Below are positions 52,633 through 54,727 of a DNA stretch of 54,727 nt, in pieces. The notes beneath the pieces are model-generated. The model was not told where the DNA came from. It searched no databases and worked only from the letters and a program-made list of their open reading frames with translations. Source of the stretch: an uncultured Armatimonadota bacterium (lineage in GTDB: Bacteria > Armatimonadota > Armatimonadia > Armatimonadales > Armatimonadaceae); NCBI GenBank assembly GCA_903910385.1, contig CAIVZM010000039.1, positions 1-54,727 on the forward strand, read 5' to 3'. Position 1 is the stretch's first letter. Each line of letters starts with the position of its first letter. The translations under genes and the position numbers were made by a program.

Positions 52633-53469
52633 TTATCCCCGTGACGGCTCTTTCATTCGTTCTCGTGCGGCGCGGGAAAGTTCGGCAAGGTGACCATCGT
52701 TTTGTAGCACCTGCTCCAGATGACGTTGCCGTTCCTCACCTGCTGTAGCGATCATCGCTTCGCCAAAAGCCCGGTCTATCCAGAATCGTGCGGCGCCTGA
52801 GAGATAATCGCGCAATTCTGCCAGTTTCTCCTCTGGGTAACGCTGGCAGAGATTGATCGTAAACATCCTGCGCCGCGACCCACCGCCGAATGCTGCATGT
52901 TTGGTGTTGTGGTTGAAGACAACGATATCCCCCGGCTGCGTCTCCAGTGCGACTGCCGGAACCTCGCGCCCGGCGACGCCCCAGCGTTCCGCGCTTTTCC
53001 CGATTTCTTGCTGTAGCTGATTGGCGTACCCTTCGCCGAGACGATGGCTACCGGGAATGACGCGCAATGCCCCAGTATCGCGGGTCAGTGGATCGAGATA
53101 AAAGGCGATCTTGATATGGCGTATTTCCGAATGCCAGCCATCGGAGTGCCAGCCAGTATCACCGACATAGTAGTTGCCATCGCTGCCCATATAATTGAAA
53201 TCATCGCCGCAGAGCGTCTTTGCAATGGCGAGAATACGCGGGTCATCCAGCAGGCTTGCCAATCGGGCGTCCTGATCGATAAAGGGGACGATACAGGAAC
53301 GCGCCGCGCCATCGTGCGGCCTCCCAAAATGTCCTCCGCCCTGTCGCTCCCATACCTCTTCAAAGACCGCTTGAATTTCTGCGATGCGATCCGATAACAG
53401 CCCCGGAAAACCCAGATAACCGAATGTCTCAAAAAACGCGCTTTCCTTATCGCTTAAACGATGCGTCAT
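52633..53469 (-). CDS. Phytanoyl-CoA dioxygenase-family (PhyH) protein
   Basis: 278 aa. Fe(II)/2-oxoglutarate oxygenase of the PhyH family; cupin fold. The Fe ligands are in WHSDGWHSE (HxD) with the distal His in VFNHNTKHAAFGG; the 2-oxoglutarate Arg is probably in RRRMFTINLCQRY. Substrates vary widely, from lipids to small metabolites. GGAGGGACATTACC precedes ATG 53469. It is monocistronic between a terminator and the REP-rich region. Confidence 0.9.
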   Translation of the reverse strand: MTHRLSDKESAFFETFGYLGFPGLLSDRIAEIQAVFEEVWERQGGGHFGRPHDGAARSCIVPFIDQDARLASLLDDPRILAIAKTLCGDDFNYMGSDGNYYVGDTGWHSDGWHSEIRHIKIAFYLDPLTRDTGALRVIPGSHRLGEGYANQLQQEIGKSAERWGVAGREVPAVALETQPGDIVVFNHNTKHAAFGGGSRRRMFTINLCQRYPEEKLAELRDYLSGAARFWIDRAFGEAMIATAGEERQRHLEQVLQNDGHLAELSRAARERMKEPSRG

Positions 53470-53748: not shown

Positions 53749-53962
53749 GTAGGGGCAAACCCCCGTGTTTGCCCGTCCCCCACCGTGTGGACACGGGGCG
53801 TTCGGGCGGGAATGAAGGGCAAATGTGGGGGTGGCGTAGGAAATCAAGGGCAAATGTGGGGTGGCGTAGGGAAATCAAGGGCAAATGTGGGGGTGGCGTA
53901 GAAATCAAGGGCAAATGTGGGGTGGCGTAGAAATCAAGGGCAAACACGGGGGTTTGCCCCTA
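53749..53962. repeat. Left RAYT-flanking REP-like array
   Basis: The array starts with an inverted hairpin: GGGCAAAC (53753-53760) with GTTTGCCC (53767-53774), preceded by GTAG. Four tandem units then start at 53817, 53848, 53879 and 53909 (periods 31, 31, 30 and 29 bp, all opening GGGCAAATGTGG and ending in AAATCAA). A terminal hairpin GGGCAAAC/GTTTGCCC with loop ACGGGG (53938-53959) ends in CCTAC. The RAYT stop codon lies in the last bases. Confidence 0.8.
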
Positions 53963-54577
53963 CGGGGTTCGGAACGTTGTGGGATAGGGAACGGCGTCTC
54001 TATCCACCGTTGCGTCCGTTTGACCATCGCGTTGCCGCAAATCGTTTTCGGCGTCTTCAGCCCATCGCGCCGGGTTACGATAAATGTATTCCCGAATCGC
54101 ATTCAGGGCGCGTTCGTCACGGATGATGAGTTCGTAATAATTTCGTTGCCACAAACGCCCCGGAAACGGAGGCCATTCTCCGGCATGAACCCGATCCGAA
54201 TATCGTTTCGTCGTCAATGATTTAAACCGTTGCACCATATCACCCACCGAAAATGGGCGGGCGACCCCCTGTGGTTGCCCCCCATCCAAAATGATAATGC
54301 CATGAATGTGATTCGGCATGACGACAAACGCATCCACATCTACGCCGGGGTAATGCAACGGTATCGCGTCCCATATCTCCTGTATCATGCGCCCCACGTC
54401 ATTCAGCCGCATCGTCTCACTGTCAATATCGCCAAAGAGACAGGTGCGATTCTCGGCGCAAATGGTAATGAAATACGCCCCGGCACAGGTATAATCGTAT
54501 CCCTTTAACCGAATTGACCGCCGATGCCGCCCCCACGCTGGTTCCGGCGCGTCATTCGATATATTGCCATTTCCCAT
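53960..54577 (-). CDS. REP-associated tyrosine transposase (RAYT, IS200/IS605-like)
   Basis: 205 aa, Y1 HUH nuclease. Motifs: FITICAENRTCLFGD at the N-terminus, the HUH signature in VVMPNHIHGIII, then RLWQRNYYELIIRDERALNAIREYIYRNPARW, which is characteristic of RAYT proteins and includes the catalytic Tyr region. RAYTs act on REP/REPIN hairpins, and here REP-like arrays touch both ends. The stop TAG overlaps the left array by 3 nt. AGGGGATG precedes ATG 54577. Full length, no frameshift seen. Confidence 0.9.
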   Translation of the reverse strand: MGNGNISNDAPEPAWGRHRRSIRLKGYDYTCAGAYFITICAENRTCLFGDIDSETMRLNDVGRMIQEIWDAIPLHYPGVDVDAFVVMPNHIHGIIILDGGQPQGVARPFSVGDMVQRFKSLTTKRYSDRVHAGEWPPFPGRLWQRNYYELIIRDERALNAIREYIYRNPARWAEDAENDLRQRDGQTDATVDRDAVPYPTTFRTP

Positions 54578-54578
54578 A

Positions 54579-54614
54579 AAATCATCCCCTAATACATGAA
54601 ATCATCCCCTAATA
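54579..54614. repeat. Direct repeat pair upstream of the RAYT gene
   Basis: AAATCATCCCCTAATA occurs at 54579-54594 and 54599-54614, period 20 bp, immediately upstream of the RAYT start. Candidate operator or transposase-binding site. Confidence 0.5.
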
Positions 54615-54617
54615 GAA

Positions 54618-54727
54618 GGGCAGACACGGTGGGATGAAGGGCAGACACGGTGGGATGAAGGGCGGACACGGTGGGGTGAAGGGCAGACACGGTGGGGTGA
54701 AGGGCAGACACGGGGGTCTGCCCCTAC
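54618..54727. repeat. Right RAYT-flanking REP-like array
   Basis: Units of exactly 21 bp opening GGGCAGACACGG start at 54618, 54639, 54660 and 54681. A fifth start at 54702 forms the terminal hairpin GGGCAGAC (54702-54709), loop ACGGGG, GTCTGCCC (54716-54723), then CTAC to the window edge. It may continue beyond the window. Confidence 0.8.

Follow-up and report, generated by a model that had tools for sequence, protein, structure and literature searches.

Tandem half-REP arrays trail almost only the 3' side of GTAG hairpins, at a group 4 RAYT locus and across many genomes

Introduction

Near the end of contig CAIVZM010000039.1 of an uncultured Armatimonadota bacterium (assembly GCA_903910385.1), a transposase gene is bracketed by two short tandem arrays, each ending in a hairpin. 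Which part of the hairpin is repeated, on which side of it, and could the transposase have made the repeats? The spread of REPs and the role of RAYTs in vivo are open questions, most knowledge of RAYT cleavage coming from in vitro work; repeats with a direction set by GTAG would be a genomic trace of RAYT action. The window analysed here is the entire contig (54,727 nucleotides; C39 of an 84-contig draft of 4.47 Mb). The right hairpin forms its final 26 bases, and the assembly thus truncates the right flank.

Results

Anatomy of the locus

Both arrays, ending in hairpins with an ACGGGG loop, were found as initially annotated. TRF reported tandem repeats at 53811-53944 (period about 31, score 220) and 54615-54713 (period 21, score 177), and exact matches were obtained for the left hairpin, GGGCAAAC-ACGGGG-GTTTGCCC (53938-53959), and the right hairpin, GGGCAGAC-ACGGGG-GTCTGCCC (54702-54723), each of which forms an 8-bp stem as ssDNA (z = -3.4 and -4.3, respectively, against shuffles). 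The CCTAC that follows each hairpin is the GTAG tag in reverse complement, and the functional orientation is that of the minus strand, as for the RAYT gene, with GTAG followed by the 8-bp stem and 6-nt loop. Read on this strand, opposite to that of the initial annotation, the element has the form GTAG-GGGCRRAC-N6-GTYYGCCC, a short palindrome with GTAG at its 5' foot, bearing out its identification as a REP. The change of strand also reverses the earlier statement that only the 5' half of the hairpin repeats: what repeats is the 3' half, made up of loop end, 3' arm and spacer, each unit comprising the GTAG-distal half of the REP, from the loop through the 3' arm, and the 3' flanking spacer (Table 1). 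The arm in the left units is ATTTGCCC, with one mismatch relative to the hairpin arm GTTTGCCC, while the hairpin arm is exact in three of the four right units.

The two hairpins first described are joined by a third perfect one at 53749-53774 (+), which had been overlooked within the same region and is the exact inverse of 53938-53963. The left array therefore lies inside an inverted REP pair with GTAG outside. This pair (53749/53963) has REPIN geometry, but is single-copy, with the array as its spacer. The TAG stop codon of the RAYT gene (53962-53960) lies inside the GTAG tag of the downstream REP (53938..53963); the same arrangement recurs in unrelated RAYTs, at loci L099 and L276. The locus is a REPtron, in which cognate GTAG-REPs enclose a RAYT gene of group 4 (subclass 2.4).

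Table 1. Features of the REPtron at the right end of the window.
Feature	Position	Strand	Details
GTAG-REP GTAGGGGCAAACCCCCGTGTTTGCCC	53749..53774	+	Inverted partner of the 53938-53963 REP; fold z -2.7
Degenerate half unit TTCATTCCCGCCCGAACGCCCCGTGTCC	53789..53816	-	Resembles the C25 33-bp unit (by eye)
Left half-REP array	53817..53937	-	4 units of 29, 30, 31 and 31 bp; trails the 3' side of the REP
Left-array unit composition			Spacer TTGATTTC..TACGCCAC + CCCACATTTGCCC
GTAG-REP 3' of RAYT gene	53938..53963	-	Fold z -3.4
RAYT gene	53960..54577	-	205 aa; group 4 / subclass 2.4; HUH H90/H92, putative catalytic Y164
Decayed REP-like palindrome within RAYT gene	54259..54280	-	Encodes GGQPQGVARP; 3 mismatches; fold z only -1.8
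Right half-REP array	54618..54701	-	4 units of 21 bp (TTCAYCCCACCGTGTCYGCCC); between REP and RAYT start
GTAG-REP GTAGGGGCAGACCCCCGTGTCTGCCC upstream of RAYT gene	54702..54727	-	Contig end; fold z -4.3

The transposase is a group 4 RAYT

The product of 53960-54577 (-) is a REP-associated tyrosine transposase (RAYT), a small domesticated transposase of a known type, group 4 / subclass 2.4, in agreement with the initial annotation of the gene. It matches the Y1_Tnp domain (E 6e-6) and the NCBIfam family NF047646 (REP-associated transposase; 61 bits, below the curated cut-off of 80). Its motifs NHIH, WQ and YIYRNP are near the subclass 2.4 TnpA_REP signature (NH[IFV]H, WQ, YIxNNP), with R replacing N at one place in YIYRNP, and GTAG REPs flank the gene, as in that subclass, at 53963 and 54727. 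Subclass 2.4 of TnpA_REP (Quentin et al. 2018, PMC6006769) corresponds to RAYT group 4 of Bertels. A phmmer search against the PDB gave no matches. An AlphaFold model built from three sequences (pLDDT 67, pTM 0.64) matched IS200/IS605 transposases; the E. coli TnpA_REP-REP complex 4er8 was also matched, at an rmsd of 2.9 over 144 columns. The decayed palindrome within the gene aligns with the linker site at which relatives hold in-frame REPs.

The REP is scarce in its own genome and widespread elsewhere

The own draft genome contains four perfect REP copies, three in the window and one on contig C25. REPs had been described as amplified beside their transposase; with a single further perfect copy, near a contig end, the genome does not bear this out, and does not show the many dispersed copies typical of GTAG REPs. 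The C25 hairpin ends 28 bp short of the contig end and carries 33-bp half units on its 3' side. The contig itself (G000:C25:39799-39917) terminates in GTAGGGGCA, the start of an inverted REP. As C25 and C39 both end at GTAG-REPs, REPs evidently interrupt the assembly, and these contig ends may adjoin in the genome.

A wider search for GTAGGGGCNNACN6GTNNGCCC gave matches in 46 of 291 genomes of the phylum, with up to 71 copies per genome, and the reversed-pattern control gave 0 matches in all 291. The search of the whole genome and of relatives that the initial annotation had proposed thus recovered the hairpins in relatives; absence there, which it had named as grounds for doubt, was not what was found. 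Given up to 71 copies in relatives, the REP sequence family qualifies as dispersed, and it is the own genome that shows no amplification. One other genus of the same family carries the stem GGGCGGAC/GTCCGCCC in many copies, and dispersed inverted REP pairs occur in genomes G164, G174 and G275. Matches listed in a genome-contig scan came from Chlorobium, Bacteroidetes, Oscillospiraceae, Cyanobacteria, Acidobacteria, Deltaproteobacteria, Gammaproteobacteria, Chloroflexi, Armatimonadetes, Nitrospirae, Planctomycetota, WOR-3 and others, placing the same REP in a dozen or more phyla, with the stem kept by compensatory changes. The bases at the two free stem positions complement each other in 102/109 hairpins, and in 104/105 of the cross-phylum sample, with at least five pair types present (AG/CT, GG/CC, GA/TC, GC/GC and AA/TT). 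Stem variants therefore still pair, as initially proposed from the left and right hairpins. Tandem arrays of whole REPs, with periods of 44 and 33 bp, were also seen in G204:C78 (L101, L443) and in G172:C29 and C35, that in G204 lying directly upstream of a group 4 RAYT.

REPs and arrays are associated with group 4 RAYTs

Group 4 RAYTs (E <= 1e-20) were detected in 18/46 genomes with the hairpin and in 5/34 hand-picked hairpin-free genomes (p = 0.024). When RAYT loci were selected on the protein alone, perfect GT[AG]G hairpins were present inside the gene in 17/32 gene hits, and in the 1-kb flanks of 19/32, some of these hits being overlapping loci. Hairpin density was 0.87 per kb at RAYT loci versus 0.22 at other Y1 loci, with none in shuffled sequence. 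The arrays follow the same trend, with a group 4 RAYT in 7/8 array genomes versus 11/38 others (p = 0.004), and 4/14 arrays near RAYT genes versus about 30/455 (p = 0.014), these being hand counts from few genomes. G164 has arrays and gave no group 4 RAYT match at E <= 1e-20.

The in-gene REP, GTAGGGGCAGACCTGCGTGTCTGCCC, is read in frame as VGADLRVCP and lies in the linker between HUH and the C-terminal half. An in-frame REP within the RAYT gene is clear in L420, L421, L424 and L425, whereas the window gene has only the decayed palindrome. VGADLRVCP-like linkers from in-frame REPs were observed in L134 (Bacteroidota), L113 (Pedobacter), L420-L425 and L435, and tandem half units lengthen this linker. 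Where in-gene half-unit periods are clear, they are 15, 21, 24 and 27 bp (L429, L420, L421 and L082), all multiples of three.

Half-REP arrays trail the 3' side of the GTAG hairpin

Across many genomes, half-REP arrays lie almost exclusively 3' of the GTAG hairpin. Polarity was counted as exact copies of the hairpin's own arm outside full hairpins, using mirrored 3' and 5' patterns and symmetric counting. Among the matches listed for the phylum, 14 loci in 8 genomes had copies on the 3' side and 0 on the 5' side, counts that for the richest genomes are to be read as "at least"; a single 5' candidate, G275:C43, was taken to be a degenerate full hairpin, being at the limit of three mismatches. 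In viral contigs, for which both scans were complete, 10 loci had 3'-side and 3 had 5'-side copies, and the genome-contig hairpin-only sample gave 5 versus 0 among the matches listed. Combined at equal stringency, again among the matches listed, the ratio was 29:3 by loci (p = 2.6e-6) and 22:3 by genomes or contigs (p = 1.6e-4), the latter being the safer figure because some loci are related and not fully independent. Two or more half copies were found at 10 pooled loci of the GGGC-stem class on the 3' side and at 0 on the 5' side. Other GTAG hairpins gave 8 versus 4, all 4 from one CCCCGACC-stem family. In this family, the GTAG hairpins at L382 and L395, on viral contigs, carry 5'-side tandem copies, the polarity opposite to that of all other arrays seen.

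The duplication starts in the loop in 28/36 cases and 1-4 nt into the 5' arm in 8/36, half-unit periods range from 9 to 59 bp, and no constant CT was noticed at unit boundaries. An inverted partner accompanies 10/32 arrays and 212/717 array-free REPs, ruling out the idea that arrays need one; for 17/32 arrays, no REP partner lies within 250 nt. G164 has five scattered copies (L450-L454) of an inverted REP pair followed on the 3' side by one or two half units, and this tail thus seems to travel with the REP while varying in length.

Relation to known systems

The locus shares with subclass 2.4 REPtrons (Quentin et al. 2018, PMC6006769) its protein motifs, long perfect GTAG REPs whose stem base consists of three G-C pairs, and REPs flanking the gene; in-frame REPs between HUH and Tyr and a wide taxonomic scatter, seen in the relatives here, are likewise reported there. 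An in-frame REP inside a RAYT is accordingly not new, having been published for subclass 2.4 in 2018 (PMC6006769). That paper mentions short repeats in the variable domain, but its main text says nothing of half-REP arrays or of the side of GTAG on which they lie. The GTAG-tagged REP superfamily (Di Nocera et al. 2013, PMC3733652) is alike in its GTAG tag and perfect hairpin, compensatory stem variants, inverted dimers, TAG stops from GTAG and REPs inside genes, so that a stop codon supplied by GTAG is also already published. Clusters there are whole REPs or dimers in tandem, and the text consulted does not describe half-hairpin units.

REPIN clusters of Pseudomonas fluorescens SBW25 (Bertels and Rainey 2011, PMC3116915) similarly place tandem REP units beside RAYT genes, and a second mechanism of REP cluster formation was suggested there. 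In SBW25, however, whole REPs or REPINs of about 70-180 bp make up the unit, whereas here it is a half REP of about 9-59 bp, and one-sided. E. coli TnpA_REP bound to its REP (4er8) has the same HUH single-tyrosine fold and a GTAG-hairpin substrate, but is a group 2 protein with bulged REPs, whereas the window RAYT belongs to group 4; the literature searched yielded no assay of a group 4 protein. The main texts of the open-licence literature yielded nothing relevant on half-REP arrays, their side or the VGADLRV peptide, and no description of RAYT linkers lengthened by half units. The geometry of the tandem units relative to GTAG is thus seemingly previously unreported.

Proposed mechanism and alternatives

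The initial annotation had offered slippage or RAYT activity as the origin of the arrays, without choosing between them. The one-sidedness argues for a GTAG-dependent process, without proving one. In a near-symmetric hairpin, passive slippage should duplicate either half, with no preferred side. GTAG breaks this symmetry and is read by TnpA_REP; together with the lack of a partner effect and the association with RAYTs, this favours 3' nicking. The best explanation, which we put forward tentatively, is that RAYT nicks 3' of the GTAG hairpin, and that the freed end slips back and re-primes. TnpA_REP recognises GTAG in a strand-specific manner, and its cut at CT, on either the 5' or the 3' side of the REP, leaves a 3'-OH (PMC8266576), which could serve as a primer for synthesis. 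From the anatomy and statistics observed, we infer each of the following steps. RAYT would bind the folded single strand via GTAG and the hairpin, and nick it 3' of the REP 3' arm. The freed 3'-OH end, carrying the 3' arm and some spacer, would slip back to the loop region on the complementary strand, and be extended again through the loop, 3' arm and spacer before rejoining. Each round would add one unit, always on the 3' side, with the nick position setting the array period. Half-REP arrays would then arise as by-products when REPs are cleaved in order to move, and could travel with them. E. coli TnpA_REP cuts both sides of the REP in vitro (PMC8266576); exclusive action on the 3' side is therefore not automatic, which counts against this model. 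The lack of a constant CT at unit boundaries, the arrays of G164, where no group 4 RAYT was matched at E <= 1e-20, and the 5'-side copies of the CCCCGACC-stem family weigh against it as well.

The main rival to the 3'-nick model is a replication-orientation bias, in which passive fork-polar slippage would proceed without RAYT and the GTAG polarity would be only apparent, REPs lying mostly in one orientation to the fork. IS200/IS605 elements show such an orientation preference, for the lagging-strand template; hairpins are well-known sites of slippage, and the units are indeed plain tandem duplications of varying period, one end of which lies in the loop. We nevertheless find this explanation possible but somewhat less likely, as REPs occur in both orientations within inverted pairs, the left array of the window sits between two opposite REPs, and arrays are commoner in genomes with a group 4 RAYT. 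Survivorship, with duplication on both sides followed by loss or resolution of 5'-side copies, is unlikely: a 5'-side unit would indeed hold GTAG and the 5' arm, the part read by RAYT, so that such copies would present several RAYT substrates, yet the whole-REP tandem arrays in G172 and G204 carry several GTAG tags and persist.

Template switching between the arms of inverted REP pairs (REPINs) would also give apparent polarity, "inside" being the 3' side of both REPs, and the left array of the window and those of L420 and L421 do lie inside inverted pairs. The 17/32 arrays lacking a nearby partner, and the equal frequency of inverted partners at array-free REPs, make it highly improbable. That chance or an assembly artefact produced the pattern is hardly conceivable even with the right hairpin at a contig end, in view of the empty reversed-pattern control in 291 genomes, the stem covariation, and the concentration of hairpins at protein-chosen RAYT loci relative to other Y1 loci and shuffled sequence.

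If the 3'-nick model holds, the arrays may be a genomic footprint of RAYT catalysis, a directional form of repeat-making that operates in many phyla and drives in-frame growth of the group 4 RAYT's own linker. Directional repeat-making would also explain how the variable linker of these proteins grows. A simple assay would follow, with units counted on either side of a REP, with versus without enzyme.

Other features of the locus

At the RAYT start, window positions 54575-54614 contain a duplicated 20-bp sequence with the ribosome-binding-like AGGGGATGATT and ATG; given the duplication length of 20 bp, the upstream ATG is out of frame with the RAYT gene. The adjoining gene, 52633-53469 (-), encodes a member of the phytanoyl-CoA dioxygenase (PhyH) family, apparently bearing no relation to the RAYT locus.
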